A stretch of DNA of 32,108 nucleotides from Patescibacteria group bacterium (GTDB taxonomy: Bacteria > Patescibacteriota > Minisyncoccia > Phycocordibacterales > UBA12079), in assembly GCA_018817595.1 (NCBI GenBank), contig JAHITU010000001.1:1-32108 (forward strand), given 5' to 3'. Shown here piece by piece: positions 5,703-32,108 of the stretch. A program made the translations under genes and the position numbers. The notes beneath the pieces were generated by a model. That model made no database searches. It had not been told where the DNA came from and saw only the letters and a program-made list of their open reading frames with translations. Within the stretch, counting starts at the first letter, position 1, and every line of letters begins with the position of its first letter.

Positions 5703-7796
<2,094 letters not shown>

Positions 7797-7951: not shown

Positions 7952-8275
7952 CTACAAATTAAAAACTTTTTTAAGACTAGTGTTTATTTTTTCCTTTAAA
8001 GAATTATCTACTTCTCCCAACTCTCCTAGAATTATTTTTTTGTCTAATGTAGCAATTTTAGAAATTTTTATAACAGAATCTTTTTTTAATCCATTTATTT
8101 CTGTTTTTTTAATTTTAATATCTTGATTAAATGTTTTTTTAATCTCAGATGATATAAAGGAAACAACAACATCGTCAGAGGATAAATTCGATATAATAAC
8201 CGCTGGTCGAACTTTTAATGACGATAAATCAGTGAAAGGAAATGGGGTTAGTATTATTTTATATTTTTTATACAT
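7952..8275 (-). CDS. PemK/MazF-type toxin
   Basis: 107 residues, typical for the family, whose members cut mRNA as sequence-specific endoribonucleases. The N-terminal pattern YKKYKIILTPFPFTDLSSLKVRPAVIIS fits the MazF/PemK strand order with the conserved K-x-RPAVIIS. The middle VVSFISSE matches the strand that carries the Thr/Ser near the active site, and DSVIKISKIATLDKKII corresponds to the V-R-x-x-K-I-x-T-L region. The start codon overlaps the end of the antitoxin gene by 8 bp, which implies translational coupling. Lysine-rich overall, like much of this genome. The fold assignment is confident; cleavage specificity cannot be read. Confidence 0.85.
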   Translation of the reverse strand: MYKKYKIILTPFPFTDLSSLKVRPAVIISNLSSDDVVVSFISSEIKKTFNQDIKIKKTEINGLKKDSVIKISKIATLDKKIILGELGEVDNSLKEKINTSLKKVFNL

Positions 8276-8516
8276 ATTTCACTTTTAAATCATCAATTGA
8301 ATAAATATCAGGTTCTTTTTTTAGAAAATCAAAAGAAGTAGAATTTGCGTTGAAATTAGTGATATCAGAAACCTTCTTATTTAAATTTTCAGGAAATTTA
8401 ATAATGATCACTTCTGGTTTATTTCTTCTTCCAACAATTATAGGTTTATTAGAAACAACCTCTTCTAAAAAAGAAGGTAAGTTTTTTCTAAAATTTGTAG
8501 TAGATAAAATATTCAT
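8268..8516 (-). CDS. Phd/YefM-type antitoxin
   Basis: 82 residues. The N-terminus MNILSTTNFRKNLPSFLEEVVSNKPIIVGRRNKPEVIIIK follows the Phd/YefM DNA-binding fold, with a short strand, the FRKNLPSFLEEV helix and the VGRRNKPEVIII hairpin. The C-terminal half (SFDFLKKEPDIYSIDDLKVKYV) would be the disordered part that wraps and inhibits the toxin. It is the first gene of the pair, as usual. Such antitoxins repress their own promoter. Two TGTACA palindromes upstream (8521-8526, 8545-8550), one on the predicted -10, are good operator candidates. Confidence 0.8.
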   Translation of the reverse strand: MNILSTTNFRKNLPSFLEEVVSNKPIIVGRRNKPEVIIIKFPENLNKKVSDITNFNANSTSFDFLKKEPDIYSIDDLKVKYV

Positions 8517-8598: not shown

Positions 8599-11007
8599 CT
8601 AACGCACTTCCCAAGCATTTAGTTCAATTTGGGCTGTGATTTTATTCATAATTATATTTATTTCTTCGTCCGTTAGGGTTTTTTCTTTTGATTGAAAAAC
8701 TAAATTAAAGGCATAAGATGTTCGATTTTCTCCTTCAGGAGCATAAGTATCAAATAATTTTGTTTGGACTAATAGTTCTCCTGCATTTTCCTTGATTAAA
8801 TTCAGCAAATCATCAGAAGTATTTTCGTTAGAAACCCACACCGCAATATCTCTCAACATATATGGGTAGAGTGAAATTTGTTTAAAGATAATATCTTCTT
8901 TAGAATCAACTTTCAAAACATCATTATAACTTTCAGGGTTTGGTAATTTTTCGATTAATTTATCTAGGTTTATTTCAAGTATTCCTTCCAGTGATTTTTC
9001 TTTTATTTCTATATTTAATTCTTTCCCCAAGATATCTTTAATTCTCTGGATTGCCTCGTCCCTCGCAATGACGGACTTTTTATTTTTCTTAACGATTTCA
9101 ATTCCGATAGCCAATGACAAATATTCCCCATCTATATCAGGAAATACTTTTCCGATTTCAAATATTTTGATTTCATCTAATCCTAATACTGGAGCATTTT
9201 TTGAATTCAACTCTAAAGCTTTTGTAATTCCATCATTTAAATTAGTTCTCAAAAATCCTAAATTAGAAGCCAAAGGTTTCTGTACTTCTACATTTCCCTT
9301 GTCTCCAAAAGTATAAGTATAGACTTCTGTAAAGCCTTCCCTTGTTAAAATATTTTTTATTTTATTTATGTAATAAAAATCTTTGTTAATTTTTGGTTCA
9401 AATATTCTCCCCACAGAAACTGGTTTAATATTTCTATAACCATAAATTCTTCCAACTTCTTCAATTAAATCTTCTTTAATTCTTAAATCTAATCTCTCGT
9501 GAGGCGTTGTAATTACATATCTTTCATTATTTCCCGTATTTGTCTGTGTCTCATCTGCATTATTTCGCGATTTTACTATTCTTCGATAACCTACAATATT
9601 CTCAAACAATTTATAGTCACTTAATTTCTCTAATGAAACTTCTCCATTCTCTCCGTTTTTTCTAGAAGCGTGAATCATTTTATCTTCACCTAAATACAAA
9701 GCAACATGATCAACTCCTTCTACTACTTTAGTCCCTTTCAGAAACTCCAAAGTTTCAAAATAAATTTTTCCAACATTACTGTTAAAGAAAATTAAATCTC
9801 CAGCCTTTAAATCTTGCTTTTGTACTTCTTCTCCCCAAACATACTGATCGACAGAAACTCTTGGAATTCCAATCCCAGCTTGAGCAAAAAGATAAGCTGT
9901 AAATGAAGAACAATCAAACTCATTAGGGGCATCAAATGTTACAGAAGCTCCCATCTTATATGGTTTTCCTATAAATTCAGTGGCTAATTCCAAAACCTTA
10001 TCAAGAGGATTTATTTTCTCATATTCAAAACCTAATCGTTTAAAGATATTTTCAACTTCTTCACTTGATAAATCTGTCCCCAAAACTCTGTTAATTTCTG
10101 AAATAGAAACCCCAACTTTAAACGGATTGGCCTTTCGAGGATAAATATCTAAAATATCTTCAGAAGCCTTTCCTCCTGTGATTTCAACTATTAATTGAGT
10201 TAATCTTTCCATAGCCTCCATTACTTTTTCAGGACTAATATTGTTTTCAAATCTAATAGAAGCATCAGTTCTTAATCCCAATTTTCTAGAGGTTCGTCGA
10301 ATATTGGTTGAGTTAAAATTACACACAGACAAAACCACATTTTTTGTGTTTTCATCAATACCTGAAATACTACCACCTTTAGTTCCTGCAATGTCCAAAG
10401 CTTTTTCTTTGTCAGAAATAACAACCACAGTCTCATCCAATTCAAAGTCTTGCCCATCTAGAGTGGTAATTTTTTCTCCTAACTTAGCTGTGCGAATATT
10501 AAATTCTTTAACTCCGTTTTCGTTTTTAGCTATTTTATCAAAATCAAAAGCATGAACTGGTTGTCCAGTCTCCCACATTACATAATTAGTGATATCTACA
10601 ACGTTATTGATAGACCTTTGACCAATAGATTCTAATTTTTCTTTTAACCAGTCTGGAGAAGCTTGTATTTTTACTTCTTGTACTAATCTCTTGGTTGCTC
10701 GAGGCACTAAATTACTATCGTCTATTGAAAGAGCAATAAAATCAGAAGATATTAATCCTTTTTCAGTAATATATTCTTTTTTAATATTTTTTAATTTTAA
10801 CCCTGTCAAAACAGAAATTTCTCGAGCAATTCCTGAGTAACACAAACAATCGTGAGAGCGGTTTGGTAAAACATCGATATCAATTAAATCATCCTTTTCT
10901 ACCCCTTCAATTTCAAAAGAATGAAAAGTCAAAGTCTCCACCAAGTCTTTAATCTCTGGTAAGTCTTCTTCAAAATATTCTTGTAACCATTTGTATGAAA
11001 ATTGCAT
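8599..11007 (-). CDS. pheT: Phenylalanyl-tRNA synthetase beta subunit with an NlpC/P60 peptidase domain inside the B5 domain
   Basis: 802 residues. With PheS it charges tRNA-Phe and edits mischarged Tyr. The N-terminus MQFSYKWLQEYFEEDLP is normal, but SFEIEGVEKDDLIDIDVLPNR (30-50) passes straight to the B3/4 part: the EMAP-like tRNA-binding domain of about 110 residues is absent. B3/4 spans about 60-290. The first half of B5 ends at FKRLGFEYE (322-330). Then comes an NlpC/P60 domain (about 334-478) with FDCSSFTAYLF (Cys366), VDHVALYLG (His434) and MIHAS (His446), the expected Cys-His-His triad. A polar linker leads back into the second half of B5, ITTPHERLDLRIKEDLIEEVGRIYGY (499-524). The core-like domain and C-terminal FDX-ACB domain (about 711-802) follow. 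Residues 645-656 come from a dispersed repeat. The frame is uninterrupted. Confidence 0.93.
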   Translation of the reverse strand: MQFSYKWLQEYFEEDLPEIKDLVETLTFHSFEIEGVEKDDLIDIDVLPNRSHDCLCYSGIAREISVLTGLKLKNIKKEYITEKGLISSDFIALSIDDSNLVPRATKRLVQEVKIQASPDWLKEKLESIGQRSINNVVDITNYVMWETGQPVHAFDFDKIAKNENGVKEFNIRTAKLGEKITTLDGQDFELDETVVVISDKEKALDIAGTKGGSISGIDENTKNVVLSVCNFNSTNIRRTSRKLGLRTDASIRFENNISPEKVMEAMERLTQLIVEITGGKASEDILDIYPRKANPFKVGVSISEINRVLGTDLSSEEVENIFKRLGFEYEKINPLDKVLELATEFIGKPYKMGASVTFDAPNEFDCSSFTAYLFAQAGIGIPRVSVDQYVWGEEVQKQDLKAGDLIFFNSNVGKIYFETLEFLKGTKVVEGVDHVALYLGEDKMIHASRKNGENGEVSLEKLSDYKLFENIVGYRRIVKSRNNADETQTNTGNNERYVITTPHERLDLRIKEDLIEEVGRIYGYRNIKPVSVGRIFEPKINKDFYYINKIKNILTREGFTEVYTYTFGDKGNVEVQKPLASNLGFLRTNLNDGITKALELNSKNAPVLGLDEIKIFEIGKVFPDIDGEYLSLAIGIEIVKKNKKSVIARDEAIQRIKDILGKELNIEIKEKSLEGILEINLDKLIEKLPNPESYNDVLKVDSKEDIIFKQISLYPYMLRDIAVWVSNENTSDDLLNLIKENAGELLVQTKLFDTYAPEGENRTSYAFNLVFQSKEKTLTDEEINIIMNKITAQIELNAWEVR
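9044..9075 (-). repeat. Dispersed GTCATTGCGAG...GGCAATCCAG repeat inside pheT
   Basis: Read on the minus strand, GTCATTGCGAGGGACGAGG is followed directly by CAATCCAGAG. This is the common bacterial repeat also found, with an AT-rich centre, at the right half of 5438-5604. Here it is in frame and encodes SVIARDEAIQRI, residues 645-656 of PheT, between two conserved regions. Confidence 0.75.
9523..10006 (-). other. Region of pheT encoding the inserted NlpC/P60 domain
   Basis: Codons 334-495. The nearest normal PheT would join GFEYE directly to the ERYVITTP strand. The inserted segment carries a helix (DKVLELATEFIGKPYKMG), the catalytic FDCSSF, the strand AGDLIFF that is typical after the second helix in NlpC/P60 proteins, the His strand VDHVALYLG, and HAS. 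The last 16 codons form a polar Asn/Thr-rich linker that contains two near-identical DNA stretches (cgcgaaataatg and cgggaaataatg). Confidence 0.85.
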
Positions 11008-11055: not shown

Positions 11056-11090
11056 GGGCCCTTGTAGGAGTTAGTTTCTACCGGGGGCCT
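11056..11090. other. GC-rich imperfect hairpin between the NYN gene and pheT
   Basis: ggcccttgtag and ctaccgggggcc flank a 10-nt loop and overlap the NYN stop codon. As plus-strand RNA it pairs over 11 bp with G-U pairs and one bulge and is followed by TTTTCC, but no plus-strand gene precedes it. On the minus strand it is weaker and lacks a T tract. It may pause or process the transcript entering pheT; the role is unclear. Confidence 0.35.
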
Positions 11091-11572
11091 TTTCCTTTTA
11101 GTAACTCCTTTAAATCTTTTAAATAAACAGTTTTTACATATAATCTTCTTATTAAATAAGAAAGTTTTTGAGAAGGAGAAACAACAAAAACTTCTTTATT
11201 CTCACTTTTGGCAAATTCCAACAAACAAGAAAAATCTCCATCACTCGAAACTAAAACTATTTTACTCATATCTTTTCTAATAATATCCTCTGCTGATTTT
11301 AAAACTAGTTCAGCATCACAATTACCTTTTATCTGTCCTTTTGATTTTAAGGTTTTTTTAAAAACTATTTTATATCCGATTTTTTCTAGGAAATCATATA
11401 GATCTTTATTTTCTTCAACAAAACCTATAAACAAATAAATCTTTTCTGTTTTAAAATTCTCACTAAGCCAAACATAAAGCCTTTTATAATCCAATTTCCA
11501 ATCAAAAAATATAGAAGCATTATATAAATTTGCTCCATCTATATAAACCCTAGTTTTATTGTCAATTTTCAT
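11078..11572 (-). CDS. NYN-domain protein (PIN-like nuclease fold, LabA/DUF88 type)
   Basis: 164 residues, all one domain. The NYN family shares the PIN nuclease fold, and its members usually cut RNA using a cluster of acidic residues with a metal ion. Visible here are VYIDGANLYN (Asp12 and Asn15), GNCDAELVLKS (Asp86), and VLVSSDGDFSCLLEFA (Asp111 and Asp113), which is the full set of the LabA/Limkain-type active site. The C-terminus (SYLIRRLYVKTVYLKDLKELL) is basic. It lies between pheS (44 bp away) and pheT (70 bp away) on the same strand, so it probably shares their transcript. Its target is unknown; an RNA-processing role is inferred from the fold only. Confidence 0.85.
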   Translation of the reverse strand: MKIDNKTRVYIDGANLYNASIFFDWKLDYKRLYVWLSENFKTEKIYLFIGFVEENKDLYDFLEKIGYKIVFKKTLKSKGQIKGNCDAELVLKSAEDIIRKDMSKIVLVSSDGDFSCLLEFAKSENKEVFVVSPSQKLSYLIRRLYVKTVYLKDLKELLKGKGPR

Positions 11573-11616: not shown

Positions 11617-12363
11617 TTAAAACTGATTAACTAATCTTAAATCTCCTGAATAAAATAATCGGATGTCGTCTACATTATGTTTTAGCATAGTAATTCTATC
11701 TACCCCCACGCCAAAAGCGAACCCTTGGTATTTCCTAGAATCAATTCCAACAGTATTTAAAACTTTTGGATGAACCATACCCGCTCCAAGAATTTCTATC
11801 CAACCACTGTGAGAACATGAGGGGCAACCTTTTCCCTTACATTTAAAACAAACCATATCTACTTCAATCCCTGGCTCTACGAAAGGGAAATATCCTGGAC
11901 GAAGTCGAATAACCACGTCATCTCCAAACAATTTTTTCAAAAATGTTTCTAGGGTGCCTTTTAGGTTAGCTAAAGAAATATTCTCCCCTACCACAAGACC
12001 CTCACATTGGTTAAACTGAGCATCATGAGTAGCATCAGTGGCTTCATTTCTAAATACCTTTCCAGGAACTACAATCGCGAAAGGTGCCTTGTTTTTTTCC
12101 ATATAACGAATCTGTACATCTGAAGTCTGAGTTCTTAAAAGTCTTTTAAGGTTTTCAGGTTTTAACCAAAAAGTATCCTGCATATCTCTAGCGGGGTGAT
12201 CCAGAGGAACATTTAGAGCATCAAAGTTGTGATATTCATCTTCTAGTTCTGGTCCACTAGCAATCTCAAAACCTATCTCAGAAAAAATCTGAGAAACCCG
12301 ACGAATAGTTTGGGTTAATATATGTAAGTGTCCTTTTTCATTTAAATTTTCTTCATTTGTCAT
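11617..12363 (-). CDS. pheS: Phenylalanyl-tRNA synthetase alpha subunit, short form
   Basis: 248 residues against about 330-350 for most bacteria. The catalytic core is complete: [24 protein letters not shown] (37-60), motif 2 [17 protein letters not shown] (101-117), a Zn-like CxxC-x4-CxxC (Cys172, 175, 180, 183) and motif 3 [14 protein letters not shown] (214-227). What is missing is the N-terminal coiled coil that holds the tRNA in other bacteria: the protein begins only a dozen residues before the core helix [12 protein letters not shown]. The upstream frame is open for only 13 codons to a TGA, with no further ATG, so the short form is real rather than a misplaced start. A TATAAT ends 7 bp before the ATG, so the mRNA may be leaderless. 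Confidence 0.93.
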
Positions 12364-21767: not shown

Positions 21768-22586
21768 ATGAAAACTACAATAATAAAACCTAAAAAAACT
21801 TTTAATTGGAATGATTTCAAAGAAATATGGCAATACAAAGAATTGCTATATTTTTTAACATGGAGGGATATAAAAGTGCGCTATAAACAAACAGCTATTG
21901 GTATTCTTTGGGCACTTTTTCAACCATTTATGACAATGGTGGTTTTTACTATATTTTTCGGAGGATTGGCTAAAATGCCTTCAGATGGAATTCCTTACCC
22001 TATTTTTGTCTACACAGGTTTATTAATCTGGCAATTTTTTTCCTCTTCCCTTTCAGATGTAAGTAATTGTTTAGTTTCTAATAAAGGAATAATTACCAAA
22101 GTATATTTCCCGAGAATCATATTACCTATTTCTTCTACAGTTACAAAATTTGTTGATTTCTCTATTGCATCAACTATATTGATAGTAATGATGATATATT
22201 ACAAATACACCCCTAATTTATCAGGACTTTTAATTTTACCATTACTCCTTTTAATTACTTTTATGGCTTCTGTCGGAGGTGGCTTATTTTTAGCCTCCAT
22301 CAATGTCAAATATAGAGATGTTCGTTATGTTTTACCTTTTTTTATTTCAATAATGATGTATCTTACTCCTGTAATTTACCCAGCCAGTATTGTTGGAAAA
22401 TATTCTTGGATTTTAGCCATTAACCCAATGACAGGGGTTATTAAGGCTGCTCGTGCCGCTCTTTTAGAAACCGCCCCTGTTAATTGGACTCTTTTATTAA
22501 TATCTGGAGTAGCTTGTTTGATACTTCTATTAGTCGGTTTCTATTTTTTCAAAAAAACAGAAAGATATTTTGCTGATATAATATAA
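21768..22586 (+). CDS. ABC-2 polysaccharide exporter, permease (Wzm/TagG-like)
   Basis: 272 residues with about six membrane segments. WRDIKVRYKQTAIGILWALFQPFMTMVVFTIFFG (37-70) is the ABC-2 signature of O-antigen/teichoic-acid exporters, and LASINVKYRDVRYVLPFFISIMMYLTPVIYP (189-219) the second. It pairs with the ATPase gene starting 6 bp after its stop. Together they move a lipid-linked glycan across the cytoplasmic membrane. The specific polymer cannot be read. Confidence 0.9.
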   Translation: MKTTIIKPKKTFNWNDFKEIWQYKELLYFLTWRDIKVRYKQTAIGILWALFQPFMTMVVFTIFFGGLAKMPSDGIPYPIFVYTGLLIWQFFSSSLSDVSNCLVSNKGIITKVYFPRIILPISSTVTKFVDFSIASTILIVMMIYYKYTPNLSGLLILPLLLLITFMASVGGGLFLASINVKYRDVRYVLPFFISIMMYLTPVIYPASIVGKYSWILAINPMTGVIKAARAALLETAPVNWTLLLISGVACLILLLVGFYFFKKTERYFADII

Positions 22587-22592
22587 TTTAAT

Positions 22593-23822
22593 ATGAAACC
22601 TATAATTACAATCAAAAACATTTCAAAGAAATATAACATCACTCATCAACAAGGAGGATATATTGCTATGCGTGATGTTTTGACCGAAATAGCTAAAAAA
22701 CCATTTTCTTTTTTAAAACACAAAGCTAAAAAAATTATTGGAAAAACAACCAATGAAGTTTTTTGGGCTCTAAAGGATATCGATTTTGAAGTTCATAAAG
22801 GAGAAGCTATCGGAATTATCGGACCAAATGGATCTGGAAAATCAACTCTTTTAAAAATTTTAACAGGAATTACCCCTCCAACAACAGGAGAAATTAGAAT
22901 GCATGGTAAAGTAGCGTCTCTTTTAGAGGTAGGAACAGGGTTTCATCCTGAATTAACTGGACGTGAAAATATTTTTCTAAATGGAGCAATCTTGGGGATG
23001 TCTAAAAAAGAAATCGCTGAAAAATTTGATGCTATTGTGGAATTTTCTGGCGTTAGTAAATTTATTGATACCCCTATCAAAAGATATTCTTCTGGAATGT
23101 TAGTACGTTTAGGTTTCTCTGTAGCAGCTCATATGGAACCAGATATTCTTTTAGTGGATGAAGTTTTAGCTGTAGGAGATGCGGATTTCCAAAAAAAATG
23201 TATTGGCAAGATGGACGAAGTAACTAAGGAAGAAGGACGGACTATTCTTTTTGTCAGTCATGATATGACATCAATCCAAAAGCTTTGTAAAAAATGTGTT
23301 TTATTAAGAGACGGAAAAATAGAAATGATAGGAGAAACAAGAGAAGTAATAAGTAAATATTTAGAAAATTCACAAAAACCAAAGGAAAATATTGGTTTAT
23401 CTTTAACAAAAAATGAAAAAATAACTATAGATTCTTTAAGAATAAAAAAACATTTAGAAAAAAATCTATATTATGATGATCCCTTAAACTTTGAACTATT
23501 AATTACAAATAATTGTCTTTTAGAAAATTTACAAATTGGTATACAAATTATAAATAGTGAATTAAATAAGATAATGACTGCTACAGTTAAAATACCAAAA
23601 ATAGAAAATGGTAAGAATAAATTATCTATAATTATTGAGAAACCCCATTTACCTCAAGGGAATTATTATATTAATCTTGGAATTACAAATATTTTTTACA
23701 AGGAAAGAATATTATATTTTATGATTTCAACAAAAGAAACAGATGATGAATTAATGCTAATAAAAAAAGATACCTTAGGGGTGTATCCACCAACAAGTTA
23801 TATATTAAATAAAATAAAATAA
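22593..23822 (+). CDS. ABC polysaccharide exporter, ATPase with Wzt-like C-terminal domain
   Basis: 409 residues. The nucleotide-binding domain has an N-terminal extension typical of Wzt/TagH, Walker A GPNGSGKST (77-85), signature YSSGM (165-169), Walker B ILLVDE (185-190) and the switch His223. From about residue 262 a separate domain follows that, in Wzt, binds the finished polymer and sets export specificity. At that junction the base composition changes sharply: a hand count gives 23 G+C of 60 at 23161-23220 and 9 of 60 at 23401-23460. Codons after it are full of AAA, AAT and ATA, like the transferase genes that follow. This fits exchange of the specificity domain together with the glycan genes. 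Confidence 0.92.
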   Translation: MKPIITIKNISKKYNITHQQGGYIAMRDVLTEIAKKPFSFLKHKAKKIIGKTTNEVFWALKDIDFEVHKGEAIGIIGPNGSGKSTLLKILTGITPPTTGEIRMHGKVASLLEVGTGFHPELTGRENIFLNGAILGMSKKEIAEKFDAIVEFSGVSKFIDTPIKRYSSGMLVRLGFSVAAHMEPDILLVDEVLAVGDADFQKKCIGKMDEVTKEEGRTILFVSHDMTSIQKLCKKCVLLRDGKIEMIGETREVISKYLENSQKPKENIGLSLTKNEKITIDSLRIKKHLEKNLYYDDPLNFELLITNNCLLENLQIGIQIINSELNKIMTATVKIPKIENGKNKLSIIIEKPHLPQGNYYINLGITNIFYKERILYFMISTKETDDELMLIKKDTLGVYPPTSYILNKIK

Positions 23823-23827
23823 CATTC

Positions 23828-24829
23828 ATGAAAAAGTTCATAATAATAACTACTATTAATAAAAAAACAGAGGCTATCATAAAGTTTTCCAAAAAACTAA
23901 AAGATTGGAATATTATTTTAGTAGGAGATAAAAAAAGCAAGAATATTAAAAATGAAAAAAATATATTATTTTTGTCTTTAAAAGATCAAAAAAATCTTGG
24001 ATTTGAAACTTTTAACAAATGTCCATATAATCATTACACAAGAAAAAATCTAGGATATCTGTATGCAATAAAAAATGGAGCTGATATTATCTATGATACT
24101 GACGATGATAATTTACCTTATAATAACTGGTCTTTTCCTGATTTCAAAATTAAAATTGATCTTTTTTCTAATAAAAAAAGTTTTATAAACATTTATAATT
24201 TATTTACAAAGGAAAAAATATGGCCAAGAGGTTATCCGATAAACAGAATTAAAGAAAAAAATAAATGGACACAAACAAGAAAAAACATAAAAATAGGAGT
24301 GTGGCAAGGATTAGCTGACATAGAACCTGATGTCGACTCTCTTTATAGATTAATAATTGGAAAAAAGATAAAATTTAAAAAACGGAATCCACTAGCTTTA
24401 GATAAAGAAACTTATTGTCCTTTCAATTCACAAAATACATTATGGAATAAAGAGTTTTTTTATTATTTATACCTTCCCTCTACTGTAAGCTTCAGATTTA
24501 CCGATATATTAAGAGGTTATATAACACAAAAATTGCTATGGCTCGAAAATTACTACTTAGGATTTACAAATGCTAGTGTTTACCAAAAAAGAAACGAGCA
24601 TGACTTAATGAAAGATTTTTATGATGAAATATCAGTTTTTGTTAATGTAGAAAATATTATTAAGTTGTTTTCAATTATAAAATTTAAAAACAAAAATAAC
24701 AAAGCAGAGAATATAAAAAAGATATATAATTGTTTATATCAAGAAGGCTTTGTTAAAAAAGAAGAAATTATAAGATTAAATGCATGGCTTTATGACATCA
24801 AAAAGATAGAGTCTGAATTCAAAAATTGA
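23828..24829 (+). CDS. STELLO/DUF288-type glycosyltransferase
   Basis: 333 residues. KKFIIITTINKKTEAIIKFSKKLKDWNIILVGDKKS opens as in the DUF288 (STELLO) family. CPYNHYTRKNLGYLYAIKNGADIIYDTDDDNLP (60-92) carries the sugar-nucleotide-binding Asp cluster. It probably adds a sugar in the polymer of this locus; donor and acceptor are unknown. It follows the ATPase gene by 5 bp and is similar to the downstream genes in its very A-rich codons. Confidence 0.8.
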   Translation: MKKFIIITTINKKTEAIIKFSKKLKDWNIILVGDKKSKNIKNEKNILFLSLKDQKNLGFETFNKCPYNHYTRKNLGYLYAIKNGADIIYDTDDDNLPYNNWSFPDFKIKIDLFSNKKSFINIYNLFTKEKIWPRGYPINRIKEKNKWTQTRKNIKIGVWQGLADIEPDVDSLYRLIIGKKIKFKKRNPLALDKETYCPFNSQNTLWNKEFFYYLYLPSTVSFRFTDILRGYITQKLLWLENYYLGFTNASVYQKRNEHDLMKDFYDEISVFVNVENIIKLFSIIKFKNKNNKAENIKKIYNCLYQEGFVKKEEIIRLNAWLYDIKKIESEFKN

Positions 24830-24836
24830 AAACTAT

Positions 24837-25514
24837 ATGAATATCCAAAAATTTAAAAATTTTATAAACGAACACAACTACCTTAGGATTTTAAAGGACT
24901 TTATTAAAAAGATTTTATTTTGGATCTCCTTACAAAAAAAAATAAACAAATTAAATAAAACAAATACTTACTTAAAACAATTTTATGGAAATAATCAAAA
25001 AGTAAAGTTAAATCTTGGGTGTTGTGATAAACAAGACCGTGGGTGGATAAATATCGATATCGATAAAAAATTTAATCCTGATATTTTAGATGATGTAACA
25101 GTTCTTTCGTGTTTTAAAGATAATTGTGCGGACGAAATAAAATCAGCACACCTTATTGAACATTTAACTTATGAAGATACATTAAAAGCATTTAAAAACT
25201 GGTTCAGAGTCCTCAAAAAAGGAGGAATTCTTTCAATAGAATGTCCAAATTTAGACAAGTGTATAGATATGATACGATCTGAGGAAGACTCAGAAAAAAT
25301 AAGGTTAGGATTTGTGGGTATATTTGGTGACCCTTGGGCAATAAAAAAATATGGGATACTTCATTCCCATAAACATGGATGGAACCCTAAAACACTCAGA
25401 GTAGAACTCAAAAATATTGGTTTTGTAGATATAAAAGAAGTGAAAATCGAAGAAACTTATAGATATTGTAACCAAAAATATGAAAGGGATATGAGAATAT
25501 TAGCAAAAAAATAA
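24837..25514 (+). CDS. SAM-dependent methyltransferase
   Basis: 225 residues. KLNLGCCDKQDRGWINIDID (57-76) is a short form of motif I with the acidic end of strand 2 (D74 and D76). SAHLIEHLTYEDTLKAFKNWFRVLKKGGILSIECPN (104-139) is the Methyltransf_11 motif set. The first 50 residues are an extra basic helical region. It may methylate a sugar or lipid in this locus, for instance to cap or mark the chain; this is inference from context. Confidence 0.8.
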   Translation: MNIQKFKNFINEHNYLRILKDFIKKILFWISLQKKINKLNKTNTYLKQFYGNNQKVKLNLGCCDKQDRGWINIDIDKKFNPDILDDVTVLSCFKDNCADEIKSAHLIEHLTYEDTLKAFKNWFRVLKKGGILSIECPNLDKCIDMIRSEEDSEKIRLGFVGIFGDPWAIKKYGILHSHKHGWNPKTLRVELKNIGFVDIKEVKIEETYRYCNQKYERDMRILAKK

Positions 25515-25524
25515 AAAATATAAC

Positions 25525-26400
25525 ATGCAAAAAACAAAATTTTTAACAATTTACCCATCTTTTGAAAATCTTGAGGTTGTTAAGAAAACACTTCCTAGTG
25601 TAATAGAAGAAACAAAAAAAAATGATGCTAAATTAATTGTTCATGACTCAAGTATAAAAAATAAAGAGGAAAAGTGGAACTGGTTACAAGAATTAAATAA
25701 AAACAACGATTTTTTCTTAATTCTCAGTAATAATATATCTATGGCACATGCTCGCAACATGTGTCTTCAGCTAGGACAAGAATTATATGCTCCTGAATAT
25801 ATTTGCATGATAGAAGATGATCATGGTTTTAAAGAAGGATTAATACAAAATATAACAAAAGCTATGCAAAAGTATTATGGTGAAATATCACCGAATGGTC
25901 TTAGATACGGTTTATTTTCAGCATGTACTAAACACTTACATGCAAAAAAACTTTTAAAATTAAAAGATGGAAATTCTTACCCAGATAAAAAATCAATCCC
26001 GATAGGGATAGGAGGATCTAATAGCTGTTTCCGATGTGCACCAACTTCACACTGGAATAATGTTCTCAAAGGTTATGATACTGACGAATACTTAATTTCA
26101 ACTTTTCAAACAAAAAACTTAAACTTTAGAAATTACAACAAAGGTTTTACAACTATGTTTATCCAAGAAGGTAAATACACTTATGATATAGAAGCCATTG
26201 GAAGAGGAATGACAACAAATGAATCACTTAAGCTTTGGGATGAAACATACACAGCAAGTGATCATAGAAGTATATTCTTACATAAAGATATTTCAACAAA
26301 ACAATTTAAAAAAATAACAAATAACATAAAGGAAAATATATCATTAGTACAAAAAATTTTTAAAAAAATCACAAAAAATGAAGAAAAAATTAAAAAATAG
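25525..26400 (+). CDS. Glycosyltransferase, GT-A fold, unassigned family
   Basis: 291 residues. The N-terminus TKFLTIYPSFENLEVVKKTLPSVIEETKKNDAKLIVHDSS and then NNISMAHARNMCLQLGQELYAPEYICMIEDDHGFKEGLI (72-110) match GT2-like layout, with the EDD as metal-binding DxD equivalent. The C-terminal part includes a GIGGSNSCFRC segment (156-167). The exact family is not clear. It overlaps the next gene's start by 23 bp if the upstream ATG is used. Confidence 0.7.
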   Translation: MQKTKFLTIYPSFENLEVVKKTLPSVIEETKKNDAKLIVHDSSIKNKEEKWNWLQELNKNNDFFLILSNNISMAHARNMCLQLGQELYAPEYICMIEDDHGFKEGLIQNITKAMQKYYGEISPNGLRYGLFSACTKHLHAKKLLKLKDGNSYPDKKSIPIGIGGSNSCFRCAPTSHWNNVLKGYDTDEYLISTFQTKNLNFRNYNKGFTTMFIQEGKYTYDIEAIGRGMTTNESLKLWDETYTASDHRSIFLHKDISTKQFKKITNNIKENISLVQKIFKKITKNEEKIKK

Positions 26401-27316
26401 AATAAAAATGAATAACCCTTTTTTATGGAACCTTTCAAAAAAGGTTTATCAGAGTATTCAAAAAAATGAATTTACAAAAATGATAAAAAAACACCTTGAT
26501 AATTCAAAGTTATATTTACAATTGAATGATAAAATACATTTCAAAAATGAATCAATAGTACTTATTACTCTAGATTCTTTAAGATATGATGTAACACAAA
26601 TAGCTGAAACACCAAATTTTAATAATATTTTTAAAAAATATAAGAGTTCTGGTTGGCATAAAGTTGGGTCACACGGGACCTATACATTACCATCTCATAT
26701 ATCTATGTTTCATGCTGGTTTAATGCCTTGTGATAATAATGAAAATACACCAGCACCATTTAATAGAAATAAAGAAAAAATCTTTAAAGCACAGTTAGCT
26801 TGGGAAAGAACAACTGGGGCAAAATTTCCAACACCCGCTGCAAAAAATATTATAAAAGGTTTCGAAAAACTTGGTTTTAGAACTATTGGAATCGGTGGTG
26901 TTCATTGGTTTAATAATAAATTCCCAACCTCTAATATATGGTATAAAAAGTATTTTAAAGAATTTTATTGGAAAGAAAAATTCTCAGAGAATAATCCAAA
27001 TTCATTAACACACCAAATAGAATTAATTGAAAAATTAAAAATAAACCAGGAGAAGAAACCAGTATTTTTATTTCTTAATATATCTTCCACTCATAAACCT
27101 TATATGGGATTTGAAAAATCAATTTTAGGACAAAAAAAAGCCTTAGAGGAAGTTGATAAATTATTACCTAAATTATTACTGAATTTACCAAAAAGATACC
27201 ACTTAATGGTATTATCTGATCATGGTGAATGTTTTGGTGAAGATAATTTGTGGGGGCATGGCTTTTATCACCCTAAGATAATGGAAGTTCCTTTTGCTTG
27301 TGTAGATATAATTTAA
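26378..27316 (+). CDS. Sulfatase/alkaline-phosphatase-superfamily enzyme
   Basis: 312 residues from the first ATG; Met11 (26408) is equally possible and would avoid overlapping the previous gene. Motifs: LITLDSLRYD (62-71, metal Asp66), HGTYTLPSHISM (99-110), where Thr103 takes the place of the Cys/Ser that sulfatases convert to formylglycine, and VLSDHGECFGEDNLWGHGFYHP (278-299) with metal Asp281 and His282 and a further His294. A Thr nucleophile fits the phosphotransferase or LtaS side of the superfamily better than a true sulfatase. It has no signal peptide or membrane segment, so it may act inside the cell on glycan precursors; a role in phosphate or phosphoglycerol transfer is speculative. 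Confidence 0.75.
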   Translation: MKKKLKNRIKMNNPFLWNLSKKVYQSIQKNEFTKMIKKHLDNSKLYLQLNDKIHFKNESIVLITLDSLRYDVTQIAETPNFNNIFKKYKSSGWHKVGSHGTYTLPSHISMFHAGLMPCDNNENTPAPFNRNKEKIFKAQLAWERTTGAKFPTPAAKNIIKGFEKLGFRTIGIGGVHWFNNKFPTSNIWYKKYFKEFYWKEKFSENNPNSLTHQIELIEKLKINQEKKPVFLFLNISSTHKPYMGFEKSILGQKKALEEVDKLLPKLLLNLPKRYHLMVLSDHGECFGEDNLWGHGFYHPKIMEVPFACVDII

Positions 27317-27322
27317 AAAGTT

Positions 27323-28057
27323 ATGATCAAAAATCTTAAAAGAAATATTTATAATAATTTATATAAAATAAAATTATTTTATATTTTTAAAAATGATTAT
27401 TTAAAATTTGAAAAGCTATCTGCAAAAAAAAATAGATTTATCTTGTCTTGGAGAAATAAATACCCCTGCCTAAGTGATAATACAGAAAAAACAAAATTTG
27501 ATGCTCATTATATATACCACCCTGCTTGGGCATCCAGGATTTTATCAAAAACAAAGCCTACAAAGCATATAGATATTTCATCAACCTTACATTTTTGTTC
27601 AATGCTCTCAGCTTTTATTCCAACAGAATTTTATGATTTCCGACCAGCTCAACTAAATCTATCTAATTTAAAATCAAAAAAGGCAGATCTTTCTTCACTT
27701 CAATTCCATGACAATAGTATTGAATCATTATCTTGCATGCATACTATTGAGCACATCGGTCTCGGTCGCTATGGTGACTCTCTAGATCCTGATGGAGATT
27801 TAAAGGCAATAAAAGAATTAAAAAGGGTTTTAGCAAAAAATGGGAATCTATTATTTGTTGTTCCTATAGGAAAACCAAAAATTATGTTTAATGCCCACAG
27901 AATATATTCATATGATCAAATTATGGGATATTTTAATGATTTTCAATTAAATGATTTTTCCTTAGTAACAGATAAAGGTATTTTTTTAAGTAGTTCAAAT
28001 AAAAAAACAGCAGATGAACAAAAATATGGTTGTGGATGTTTTTGGTTTAAAAAATAA
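27323..28057 (+). CDS. DUF268-family methyltransferase-like protein
   Basis: 244 residues. CMHTIEHIGLGRYGDSLDPDGDLKAIKELKRVLAKNGNLLFVVPIG (132-177) with FNAHRIYSYDQ (182-192) is the clear DUF268 signature, a branch of the Rossmann methyltransferases. Asp-containing strand KKADLSSLQF precedes it. Substrate unknown; being in the locus, a modified sugar is the likely target. It ends one base before the next start codon. Confidence 0.78.
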   Translation: MIKNLKRNIYNNLYKIKLFYIFKNDYLKFEKLSAKKNRFILSWRNKYPCLSDNTEKTKFDAHYIYHPAWASRILSKTKPTKHIDISSTLHFCSMLSAFIPTEFYDFRPAQLNLSNLKSKKADLSSLQFHDNSIESLSCMHTIEHIGLGRYGDSLDPDGDLKAIKELKRVLAKNGNLLFVVPIGKPKIMFNAHRIYSYDQIMGYFNDFQLNDFSLVTDKGIFLSSSNKKTADEQKYGCGCFWFKK

Positions 28058-28058
28058 T

Positions 28059-28928
28059 ATGATTATAACAAAACTAACAGGGGGTCTAGGAAATCAAATG
28101 TTTCAATATGCTATTGGACGTTCTTTAGCAGAAAAAAACAACACTGAATTGAAACTTGATGTTTCATGGTTTAATAGCCAGAAAGGAACGCCACGTAAAT
28201 ATGGTTTAACCTTTTTTAAAATATTAGAAAACATTGCAACTGATAAGGAAATTAAAAAACTAGAATTATATAAAAAAAGAAGCGGAATAAAGTACTTTTT
28301 TAATAATTTATTTTTTGCGAATAATTCAATTTATATCACAGAAAATTCAAATATTTTTAACAAAAATATATTGAAAAATAAAAATAAAGACATTTATTTA
28401 AATGGCTATTGGCAAAACGAAAAATATTTTAATGATATACGAAAAATAATTTTAAAAGAATTTACTTTAAAAGATGAGTCATCTTTGCATAACAAAAAAA
28501 TAAAAAAACTCATTGAGGATACTAATTCAGTTTCCATTCATATTCGCAGAGGTGATTATATTGAGGACAAAAAAACGAATATAGTCCACGGTACCTGTTC
28601 TTTAGATTACTACCAAGATGCTATTAAAAAGATTTCAAAATATGATGATAATTTAAATATCTTTGTTTTTTCTGATGAGATTAAGTGGGTAAAAAATAAT
28701 TTAAAAACTATCCTCCCTATTATTTTTGTTGAAGGAAATAAAGATTACGAGGATATAATTTTAATGAGTTTATGCAAACATAATATTATCGCCAATAGCT
28801 CTTTTAGTTGGTGGGGAGCTTGGTTAAACCAAAATCCTAATAAAATGATCGTTGCTCCTAAAAAATGGTTTAATGATTTAGAAAAAAATAAAAATAATTC
28901 TATACCAAAAACATGGATAAAATTATAA
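28059..28928 (+). CDS. GT11-family fucosyltransferase-like protein (alpha-1,2-fucosyltransferase type)
   Basis: 289 residues from ATG 28059, which follows the previous stop (28055-28057) almost directly; the upstream frame extension reads through the end of the previous gene and was rejected. Hallmarks: KLTGGLGNQMFQYAIGRSLA (5-24), SIHIRRGDYIEDKK (about 161-174) with the GDP-fucose-binding HxRRGDY, and IANSSFSWWGAWL near the end. Family members transfer fucose from GDP-fucose to a galactose O-2. Whether fucose is available here is not known, as no gmd or wcaG is in the window. Confidence 0.88.
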   Translation: MIITKLTGGLGNQMFQYAIGRSLAEKNNTELKLDVSWFNSQKGTPRKYGLTFFKILENIATDKEIKKLELYKKRSGIKYFFNNLFFANNSIYITENSNIFNKNILKNKNKDIYLNGYWQNEKYFNDIRKIILKEFTLKDESSLHNKKIKKLIEDTNSVSIHIRRGDYIEDKKTNIVHGTCSLDYYQDAIKKISKYDDNLNIFVFSDEIKWVKNNLKTILPIIFVEGNKDYEDIILMSLCKHNIIANSSFSWWGAWLNQNPNKMIVAPKKWFNDLEKNKNNSIPKTWIKL

Positions 28929-29950
28929 AAGAAAATCCAAAAATAACAGTCCTGATGCCTGTTTTTAATGGTGAAAAATACTTAAAAGAAGCTATTGAAA
29001 GTGTTCTTAACCAAACCTTCACTAATTTTGAGTTTCTAATTATTAATGATGGTTCAACCGATTCAACTGAAAAAATAATCAAATCTTATTCTGATTCTAG
29101 AATTAAATTAATAAATAATAAAAAAAATATTGGGGTTATTAGATCATTGAATAAAGGTCTGAGTTTATCTAAAGGAGAGTATATAGCAAGAATGGATGCT
29201 GATGATATCAGTTTACCAAAAAGACTAGAAATTCAAGTTGAATTTATGGATAAAAACCCACAAATTGGGATTGCTGGGGCTTGGGCAAAAATAATAGGAG
29301 AGAAAAAGATAAGGTGTTCTAAACCTATAGTAAATCAAGAAAAAATTAAAATTGCTTTATTATTTAAATGTCCAATGATTCACCCCTCAGTAATTATTCG
29401 AAAAAACTTCCTAGTTAAGAACAATTTAAATTATAATATCAAATATAAACATGCAGAGGATTATGACTTATGGACTAGAGCAATTAAATATTTTCCAATT
29501 ACTAATATCAAAAAAACTTTAATTCAATACAGAATTCATGATTCAAATATCAGTAAAACTCAATCTAACAATCAAAATGAAACAGCTACTCAAATTAGAG
29601 TTAGACAATTAAAAGAAAATCTTAAAATTAACCCTACAGATGAAGATATAACAATTCATGAAAATATTTATAAACCAGAAAGTCATGAAATCAAAGATTT
29701 TCTAGAAAATGAAGAGAATTGGTTTAATTTACTTAAAAACCAAAACAAAATAACAAATTTCTACAAAGAACCAGAATTCTCACAAGTATTATCACAAAGA
29801 TGGTTACAAATATGTAGTGTCAATTCAAATAACGATTGGAAAATTTGGAAAAGATTCTGGAGGTCGTCTTTAAGAAAAAAACTAGATATTAAAGAGTGGA
29901 AAAACTGTGAGCTTTTAATTAGATTTTTTATTAAATGTACTTTCAAGTAA
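28913..29950 (+). CDS. GT2-family glycosyltransferase
   Basis: 345 residues. ITVLMPVFNGEKYLKEAIESVLNQTFTNFEFLIINDGSTDST (9-50) and KGEYIARMDADDISLPKRLEIQ (84-105) are the GT2 signatures, with MDADD as the metal-binding motif. HAEDYDLWTRA (about 179-189) is the probable catalytic region. It overlaps the fucosyltransferase gene by 16 bp and tails into the convergent gene by 36 bp. Substrate unknown. Confidence 0.9.
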   Translation: MDKIIKENPKITVLMPVFNGEKYLKEAIESVLNQTFTNFEFLIINDGSTDSTEKIIKSYSDSRIKLINNKKNIGVIRSLNKGLSLSKGEYIARMDADDISLPKRLEIQVEFMDKNPQIGIAGAWAKIIGEKKIRCSKPIVNQEKIKIALLFKCPMIHPSVIIRKNFLVKNNLNYNIKYKHAEDYDLWTRAIKYFPITNIKKTLIQYRIHDSNISKTQSNNQNETATQIRVRQLKENLKINPTDEDITIHENIYKPESHEIKDFLENEENWFNLLKNQNKITNFYKEPEFSQVLSQRWLQICSVNSNNDWKIWKRFWRSSLRKKLDIKEWKNCELLIRFFIKCTFK

Positions 29951-30838
29951 AGACAGATATAGATTTTTCAAAATTTGTTTAGGGAATCTAATGTCTTTTT
30001 TATTTAACTTCCAACCTCTAAAAAGCAATTTGTTTGATTTTTTAAAATTTTTATCCTCTTGATTTAATAAAGCTAAAATAAAAATATGTTTTTCTAAAAT
30101 TTTTGGTCTTATAATTAAATCTGTTATATGTTTATTTAATAATAATTCTCTTCCAGAAATCCTAAATTTCATATTTCCACTTAAATGACTTTCTTTTTGA
30201 ACACAAGAATTAACTCTGACTAAGACCTTCTTCATGAAAAAACCGCAACTATTCTTTGATAATCTTATAAAAAAATCCTTGTCTTCAGCACAGGATAAAC
30301 TTTCATCAAAATTACCTATCTCTAGTGCCTTTTCTCTTTTGCAAAAAACTGTAGGGGTTATCATTGATAACTTTAAAGATAAAGCTTCTTCAAAAAAAGT
30401 TTTCAAACCTTCTTGAAAATTGTATTTATGTGTATAAATAAGTTTTCCATTTTTTTGAGAATAAATATCTGCCAAACAAAAAGTAAAATCAATTTGTTTA
30501 TCAAACTTTTTCATTATTTCATATTGTTTTTCAATCTTTTTTGGATAAAACTCATCATCGTCATCCAAGAATGTAATAAATTCCCCTCTGGCTCTATTAA
30601 TACCAATATTTCTTGAAGCAGAGGCTCCTGAGTTTTTTTTATTTTGTACATAAATAATTCTATTATCTGAAAATTGACTAATAATTTTATCTGCCCGATT
30701 TTCCAAACCATCATCAATAACTAATATTTCAAAATCTTGAAATGTTTGTTTAAGAACGCTTTTTATTGCCAGCTTTAATAACATTGGTCTATTATAAGTA
30801 GGAATTATAACACTGACTTGTGGAATTGAATTACTCAT
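29915..30838 (-). CDS. GT2-family glycosyltransferase (convergent)
   Basis: 307 residues. VSVIIPTYNRPMLLKLAIKSVLKQTFQDFEILVIDDG (9-45), NIGINRARGEFITFLDDDDEFYP (77-99) and CAEDKDFFIRLSK identify GT2. It is transcribed against the previous transferase, and the coding ends overlap by 36 bp without a terminator. It overlaps the upstream DUF616 gene by 4 bp (ATGA), so the minus-strand genes form their own operon coming from beyond the window. Confidence 0.9.
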   Translation of the reverse strand: MSNSIPQVSVIIPTYNRPMLLKLAIKSVLKQTFQDFEILVIDDGLENRADKIISQFSDNRIIYVQNKKNSGASASRNIGINRARGEFITFLDDDDEFYPKKIEKQYEIMKKFDKQIDFTFCLADIYSQKNGKLIYTHKYNFQEGLKTFFEEALSLKLSMITPTVFCKREKALEIGNFDESLSCAEDKDFFIRLSKNSCGFFMKKVLVRVNSCVQKESHLSGNMKFRISGRELLLNKHITDLIIRPKILEKHIFILALLNQEDKNFKKSNKLLFRGWKLNKKDIRFPKQILKNLYLSLLESTFNKKSN

Positions 30839-31572
30839 AATTTTAAATTTGACTTTATTTTATGTTTAGTATGTAAAAAATATTTATTACTTCTCACATT
30901 TCCTTTCATATAAACAAAATCTAAATTATCCTTCCAGGCTATATAATTAAAACTCAACTGATCACGACGACTACCTTCCTTGATCTCCTTCCACCAATCC
31001 TCCATTACCTTTATAATATTAAATTCATTATGTTTTCTTAAAATAACCATACCGGCAATTAGACCATTATTTTTAGGATATCCTTGTCTACGATATTTTT
31101 CCATTTGTTTAATTATTAAATCAGAATTATCTTTAAATTTACCTTTTTTATTAAGACTTAAAATAAACTCAGCTTCATCATAAATACAATTTCGACAATC
31201 TTTTACATCTTTTATCCAAAAAAGTTTTTTCCATCTTTTCATTTGTTGATTATGATCATAAATTGCTAGATTGTATTTTCCTAAATACTTGTTAATTAAT
31301 TCATTAACATCTCCTCTGATATAAACATTTCCATCAACATAAATACTTATTTCATAATCTAACAAAAATTTATGTGGTAAAATCTTATAAACTTTTGCAC
31401 TTCTTACAGGATCCTTAAATAAAGGTTCTTCTTTTCTTATCTTCCAAATATCTGAAACAAGATCTTGATCAGTAAAACATACAAAATCGCATCCTTCAGG
31501 AATAAATTTTGGTTCAATTAGATTATCTTTTCCACCAAAAATAGCTGTGTAAATTACAATTTTATTTTTCAT
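30835..31572 (-). CDS. DUF616 (TOD1/MUCI70-like) glycosyltransferase
   Basis: 245 residues from ATG 31572, preferred over the ATG 12 bp upstream because it begins directly with KNKIVIYTAIFGGKDNL, the usual start. CDFVCFTDQ, DPVRSAKVYKILPHKFL, YEISIYVDGNVYI (with DxN in place of DxD), YDEAEFI, and NNGLIAGMVILRKH with RRDQLSFNYIAWK are the family pattern. The gene start overlaps the methyltransferase end by 11 bp. It probably adds a sugar in the same locus. Confidence 0.82.
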   Translation of the reverse strand: MKNKIVIYTAIFGGKDNLIEPKFIPEGCDFVCFTDQDLVSDIWKIRKEEPLFKDPVRSAKVYKILPHKFLLDYEISIYVDGNVYIRGDVNELINKYLGKYNLAIYDHNQQMKRWKKLFWIKDVKDCRNCIYDEAEFILSLNKKGKFKDNSDLIIKQMEKYRRQGYPKNNGLIAGMVILRKHNEFNIIKVMEDWWKEIKEGSRRDQLSFNYIAWKDNLDFVYMKGNVRSNKYFLHTKHKIKSNLKL

Positions 31573-32108
31573 TTTTTTTAGCAATTACAACAATATTTTC
31601 TATAAATTTATTTGTAAACAATCCTATAAATTTATAAAAAACATAGAGGATTTTTCTCTTTAAACTTTGTTTATATTTAGTCCAAACATCATCTAAATAA
31701 TTTTCTTCTACCACATTCCAACCATTTTTTTCCAATAATTTTCTTAAAACTATAAAATTTAAATAAATCGTATGGTCATTATTTACACTAGGTTCCCTTC
31801 TAAAGAATTTATCAAAAAAATTAAATATAGTAAAAGTATTAGGAGTTGTGATGATTAATCTTCCATTATCCTTCAAATTTCTCTTGCATGAATCTAAAAA
31901 TAAACCAAGATTAGAAAGATGCTCAATTAAATCACCAGCAAAAATCACATCAAATTTTTGTTCAAAATTGAAATTCTCAGCAGATTGTTTTTTATAATTT
32001 TGTGGTTTTTTTAATCTTTTTTCATCAAAAAATAAATCAACCCCCCAAACTTCTTTAGCTTGAAGTTTAAAAATATTATGGACCCAATTAGGATTTTCTA
32101 TATTTACA
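31562..32108 (-). CDS. SAM-dependent methyltransferase (N-terminus beyond window)
   Basis: The frame is open to the window edge and reads on upstream of the GTG at 31948, so that codon is not the start. Visible are EVWGVDLFFDEKRL (acidic strand 2), FDVIFAGDLIEHLSNLGLFLDSCKRNLKDNGRLIITTPN (motifs typical of Methyltransf_11/23) and a basic C-terminal region (KYKQSLKRKILYVFYKF). Role in the locus unknown. Confidence 0.8.
   Translation of the reverse strand, partial: VNIENPNWVHNIFKLQAKEVWGVDLFFDEKRLKKPQNYKKQSAENFNFEQKFDVIFAGDLIEHLSNLGLFLDSCKRNLKDNGRLIITTPNTFTIFNFFDKFFRREPSVNNDHTIYLNFIVLRKLLEKNGWNVVEENYLDDVWTKYKQSLKRKILYVFYKFIGLFTNKFIENIVVIAKKNEK

Follow-up and report, generated by a model that had tools for sequence, protein, structure and literature searches.

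The 32,108-nucleotide stretch of patescibacterial DNA analysed here (the window) carries a pheT gene, encoding the beta subunit of phenylalanyl-tRNA synthetase (PheRS), in which an NlpC/P60 domain lies inside the B5 domain (Table 1). PheRS is among the most conserved enzymes of life and the NlpC/P60 family normally cuts cell-wall peptides; an earlier sequence-only reading of the window was right to call the fusion surprising. It had described a complete NlpC/P60 domain between both halves of B5, a triad of Cys366, His434 and His446, and one continuous frame as opposed to two genes, and all three descriptions hold. In the Pfam search, NLPC_P60 matches aa 347-452 (9.6e-20, 71 bits versus a cut-off of 23) and B5 matches in two stretches that flank it (5.2e-17); the three codons are found where they had been placed, and the frame is uninterrupted. 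The range that had been given for the insertion, 9523-10006, does hold the insert but also includes a linker: the homologous domain is confined to residues 333-478, and B5 resumes at approximately residue 495.

The remainder of the protein is that of a bacterial PheT. It passes the equivalog cut-off of the NCBIfam model TIGR00472 (pheT_bact; 427.7 versus 402.65 bits), and B3/4, B5, CLM and FDX-ACB domains are all found, in the same order as in known bacterial PheRS beta subunits (T. thermophilus 1pys/2iy5 and E. coli 3pco). Fused PheTs differ from these in an enzyme domain of 140-160 residues in the B5 hairpin, and the window PheT also in the missing B2/EMAP-like domain and in a Ser at the position of the editing residue Glu334. 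Unfused PheTs of the window's order have a hairpin of 2-5 residues between the two B5 strands (e.g. FEYHKDGEMFVVTPP); in fused PheTs, the whole NlpC/P60 domain stands between 'GFEYEK' and 'ERFVVT', replacing the hairpin loop.

Table 1. Coordinates of pheT, its domains and selected neighbours in the window
Feature	Position	Strand	Basis
pheT, phenylalanine--tRNA ligase beta subunit with NlpC/P60 insert, 802 aa	8599..11007	(-)	Frame, Pfam, NCBIfam
B3/4 editing domain, aa 101-278	10174..10707	(-)	Pfam PF03483, 7.9e-62
Ser227, at the position of tyrosine-sensing Glu334 in known PheRS editing sites	10327..10329	(-)	Alignment to E. coli 3pco
B5, first half, about aa 295-332	10012..10125	(-)	Pfam; comparison with unfused PheTs
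NlpC/P60 domain in B5 hairpin loop, aa 333-478	9574..10011	(-)	Pfam PF00877, 9.6e-20; model; PDB match 7cfl_B
Catalytic Cys366 codon	9910..9912	(-)	Invariant, 84/84 fused PheTs
Catalytic His434 codon	9706..9708	(-)	Invariant, 84/84 fused PheTs
His446 codon, third triad residue	9670..9672	(-)	His in 81/84 fused PheTs
Flexible linker after insert, aa 479-494	9526..9573	(-)	pLDDT <50 at 481-492; alignment gap region
B5, second half, aa 495-524	9436..9525	(-)	Pfam B5 stretch 490-524
FDX-ACB anticodon-binding domain, aa 712-796	8620..8874	(-)	Pfam PF03147, 1.4e-23
pheS, catalytic core only, 248 aa, upstream partner of pheT	11617..12363	(-)	Pfam PF01409, 1.6e-97
gyrB, conserved downstream neighbour of pheT and of free B5::NlpC genes	5703..7790	(-)	Frame, synteny

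A gene for an NYN-domain protein (putative nuclease; 11078-11572, minus strand) lies between pheS and pheT. The window PheS is without the N-terminal tRNA-binding coiled coil, and such short PheS proteins are common in the order at both fused and unfused loci. A link between the insert and the shortened PheS was considered and rejected, as the number of residues before the PheS core is similar in the two groups (medians of 14 in fused and 20 in unfused loci). Just downstream of pheT are a PemK/MazF-like toxin gene (7952-8275, minus strand; PF02452, 4.6e-14) and an accompanying small antitoxin-like frame (about 8276-8516, minus strand); in sister genomes, the place of this pair is occupied by a C39-like peptidase gene.

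Fold, conservation and distribution of the insert

The AlphaFold2 model of the window PheT averages a pLDDT of 89.5; values exceed 90 in most blocks of the insert and fall to about 42 in the linker around aa 481-490. In a comparison with the PDB, residues 333-478 match 7cfl_B (Z 19.6; 1.4 Å over 121 residues; 40% identity) and the remainder of the model matches PheRS beta chains. Superposition on NlpC/P60 structures suggests that the geometry of the triad is intact. With C40-type NlpC/P60 enzymes such as Acd24020, CwlO and the YkfC-like BCE_2878, the insert shares its fold, the Cys-His-His triad and its spacing (12 residues from His to His), and the motifs GxPYxxGA and DCSS. It differs from them in its location inside a cytosolic tRNA synthetase with no export or wall-binding module (the Pfam scan of the window PheT found no wall-binding or SH3b domain, unlike in NlpC/P60 peptidoglycan hydrolases), in a segment of approximately 20 residues (xETxEFxxGTKVPEG) that precedes the catalytic His in most fused inserts, and in its partner genes, which are those for PheRS and a C39-like peptidase. 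The insert is the sole NlpC/P60 match in the source genome of the window (815 kb, 97% complete).

Conservation was assessed across a set of 84 distinct fused PheTs that spans many families of Paceibacteria and many assemblies. Cys366 and His434 never vary; the His446 position is occupied by E, E and Y in the three exceptions. The insert has a mean pairwise identity of 0.465, compared to 0.504 for B3/4, 0.465 for FDX-ACB and 0.351 for CLM, so the NlpC domain is conserved as well as the synthetase's own domains. Identities of the insert and of the PheT core are correlated (r 0.69; as high in 0 of 999 permutations), a pattern that fits vertical co-inheritance of the insert with PheT.

The fusion is widespread. 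PF00877 matches fall within PheT-sized frames in 10 of the 11 genomes of the window's family, one of which is a single contig, and a fused PheT is encoded by the complete Campbellbacteria chromosome CP011215.1 (locus L174). Across the order, 128 of 397 genomes carry some NlpC match, with PheT-sized frames in many families, and other orders of the class carry the fusion in frames of 795-860 aa. The same architecture recurs in other classes, where 8 genomes encode longer PheTs (929-970 aa) whose B5 loop likewise houses an NlpC domain. Among the named groups with relatives of the locus are Campbellbacteria, Yonathbacteria, Lloydbacteria, Nomurabacteria, Taylorbacteria, Vogelbacteria and Zambryskibacteria. 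This recurrence across family, order, other orders and classes excludes chance and chimerism: a chimeric assembly, which the sequence-only reading had allowed for, or an annotation artefact is refuted by 84 distinct fused PheTs from independent genomes, including a complete chromosome and a one-contig genome, and we give it practically no credence. In the other classes the domain may stem from the same insertion or from a separate one, the order of the groups in the NlpC tree being compatible with both. Loss of the insert, or exchange with an unfused pheT, has recurred (21 state changes). In a literature search of partial coverage, no description of a PheT-NlpC/P60 fusion was found; it may already figure in automatic domain listings, because the sequences have long been public.

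Free B5::NlpC proteins and the C39-like neighbour

Thirteen genomes encode free proteins of 206-257 aa in which an NlpC domain is framed by remnants of B5. In the NlpC tree these proteins nest within the fused group at 4 or more separate places on supported branches, which indicates repeated release from PheT. The Pfam B5 model barely detects the remnants (0.004, in one of three proteins), and their B5 origin therefore rests on alignment, purpose-built profiles and synteny. The model of a free B5::NlpC protein is confident (pLDDT 93.3).

In families f50, f16 and f30, all 10 free-gene loci adjoin a gene for a monomeric PheRS of approximately 384 aa, upstream of gyrB. The free gene holds the position of the fused pheT (elsewhere the order is pheS, pheT, C39-like gene, gyrB). 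PheT is gone from these genomes, no B3/4 match was found in them, and the monomer, which combines the PheS core with FDX-ACB, is their only full PheS-core gene. In genome G112 (f25), a 411-aa PheT remains that lacks B3/4 and has an ordinary B5, with the free B5::NlpC gene on another contig; this PheT (L332:984-2216) keeps B5, CLM and FDX-ACB and adjoins a 247-aa PheS. More distant single-domain NlpC proteins (approximately 150 aa, other orders) are encoded no more than 4 genes from PheRS genes at 9 of 20 loci, against an expected rate that we estimate at roughly 1% with about 800 genes per genome.

With trans-editing factors, B5::NlpC shares the form of a free protein that has a counterpart domain in a synthetase and is encoded beside one. 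Another PheT domain that also exists in free form is B3/4: the free protein CtdA acts as a deacylase on canavanyl-tRNA-Arg (PMC10018355). B5::NlpC differs from CtdA in fold and, as a predicted cysteine hydrolase, in chemistry.

Two further protein families were noted. The bacterial monomeric PheRS (L101:3770-4915, L312:3763-4911 and others), often with no other full PheS-core gene in the same genome, stands between mitochondrial PheRS and the 'mystery ligase' SrmL of NCBIfam: all have the PheS core and FDX-ACB in one chain, and the approximately 384-aa protein scores below the cut-offs of both TIGR00469 (mitochondrial type) and NF051887 (SrmL). A second free NlpC family (S2; approximately 220 aa, start M-YRAVGNRCAV, B5-like flanks) occurs in several classes (L087, L088, L090, L093, L095, L097, L106, L117 and L352-L356); it falls outside the fused clade in the NlpC tree, and a search for PheRS neighbours at its loci found none.

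Fused pheT genes are also coupled to a C39-like (PF13529) gene. At 49 of 76 fused loci it is the next gene after pheT, in the same orientation and in many cases overlapping pheT, as against 1 of 54 among unfused loci (Fisher p 7e-15). When independent pairs are drawn on the PheT-core tree, 7.0 on average agree with the association and 0.2 oppose it (median p 0.016); with a tree built in FastTree, this is a test of moderate weight. The gene is also present at 6 of 13 free-module loci. Its product is predicted to be a papain-fold peptidase: the Gln, Cys and His residues do not vary, and all but one of 30 members match Peptidase_C39_2. C39-like matches are absent from the genome of the window and from the surroundings of fused PheTs in other classes; sister genomes G003 and G004 each have one, located in G004 just downstream of pheT.

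Proofreading context and proposed function of the insert

His265, Gly315 and Gly318 (E. coli numbering) of the editing site are invariant in fused and unfused PheTs. The window B3/4 keeps the His265, Gly315 and Thr354 positions and has Ser for Glu334, a substitution seen in 13 of 86 fused PheTs (the window's clade and one other) and 3 of 72 unfused. Glu334 and Gly315 are critical for recognition of tyrosine (PMC12447630). No DTD deacylase match was found in the 11 genomes of the window's family; this absence and the Ser fit an altered need for proofreading, one that the NlpC domain would not necessarily serve. B3/4 is gone in 11 of the 13 free-module genomes, and 113 genomes of the order lack it; most of these are devoid of any NlpC match, and about 11 retain the free module. 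Loss of B3/4 editing was rejected as a general cause of the insert, since most fused PheTs keep B3/4. The earlier suggestion of a replacement for editing is possible, with the Ser of the window's clade and the free-module genomes in its favour and the largely intact B3/4 of fused PheTs against it.

We conclude that the insert is probably a working, undescribed enzyme tied to phenylalanyl-tRNA charging, because its catalytic residues are kept, it tends to co-occur with the C39-like gene and it survives beside the synthetase after loss of its host subunit. The frequent closeness of the distant single-domain NlpC genes to PheRS genes likewise speaks for a selected enzyme linked to PheRS. It is very likely to be catalytic, and its role likely concerns PheRS function. 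A substrate in the form of the aminoacyl group on tRNA-Phe or the adenylate is a tentative suggestion, more doubtful than either. Taken whole, the explanation that a cysteine hydrolase or acyl transferase module is kept for its own chemistry and works with PheRS is one that we hold while not quite expecting every part of it to stand.

Under this explanation, the B5 loop would accommodate the NlpC/P60-fold module, which would be retained for the reaction it carries out and not for a part in PheT architecture; the module would work with PheRS and, in Paceibacteria, also with the C39-like papain-fold partner. Cys366 would most likely attack the carbonyl of an acyl group that PheRS produces or encounters, whether in the ester of an amino acid with tRNA-Phe, in an aminoacyl adenylate or in a small Phe peptide. 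A thioester would form and the acyl group would be released to water, as proofreading or clean-up beside the B3/4 editing site. Our best guess is a hydrolase that removes an acyl group from a PheRS product, in preference to a peptidase that provides peptides or destroys peptide inhibitors and to an acyl transferase. Several observations count against it: most fused PheTs conserve B3/4, which leaves no evident need for a second editing site; most genomes of the order that lack B3/4 have no NlpC match, and the insert is repeatedly lost or exchanged; and the C39-like gene is missing in the window genome and around the other-class fusions, as is the third triad residue in 3 of 84 sequences. A new form of aminoacyl-tRNA quality control, with a cysteine-nucleophile NlpC/P60 deacylase in or beside PheRS across Patescibacteria, a C39-like partner and persistence beyond B3/4, is a speculative extension that we consider unlikely.

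Among the functions that the sequence-only reading had listed, an active peptidase or amidase is best supported, by triad invariance, repeated release and the C39-like coupling. Such an enzyme might act on a tRNA-free substrate, cutting small Phe-containing or cell-wall-derived peptides with the C39-like peptidase and so feeding phenylalanine to the synthetase of an organism living on host peptides, or it might destroy peptide inhibitors of PheRS. The nearest solved relatives are peptide hydrolases (autolysin 7cfl, YkfC-like 3h41, CwlO) and the partner gene encodes a second papain-fold peptidase, but this leaves unexplained why PheRS is the constant partner, and not another synthetase or a transporter, and the SH3b recognition modules of those relatives are missing; we regard it as a serious though unlikely alternative. 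Less probable still is an acyl transferase, in which the Cys would take Phe from Phe-tRNA as a thioester and pass it to an amine, giving a Phe-tagged peptide, lipid or protein for C39-like processing. Papain-fold relatives of NlpC/P60 include acyl transferases (one free relative has a weak LRAT Pfam match), a papain-fold gene adjoins, and papain-like BtrH transacylases occur in synthetase-linked clusters (PMC2922099), yet the neighbourhood holds no conserved acceptor gene. A structural or tRNA-binding insertion without catalysis, also listed earlier, would suit a site in B5, which is helix-turn-helix-like with no known catalysis (PMC3275996), and an insert that can be lost; it is contradicted by free copies that outlive PheT, and with catalytic residues invariant at 46% mean identity and a coupled peptidase gene it is inadequate as an explanation and highly improbable.

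An intact, selected second enzyme in PheRS would point to an unrecognised step in charging, proofreading or amino-acid supply in the Patescibacteria, a widespread branch with many uncultured, ultra-small bacteria, about which nearly all knowledge comes from genomes. The small, soluble free proteins encoded next to monomeric PheRS allow a direct test, and a partner protein is predicted from the link to the C39-like gene.

Elsewhere in the window, positions 21768-31584 hold polysaccharide-export ABC transporter genes followed by glycosyltransferase, methyltransferase and sulfatase-like genes, which from their translations constitute a predicted surface-glycan cluster.
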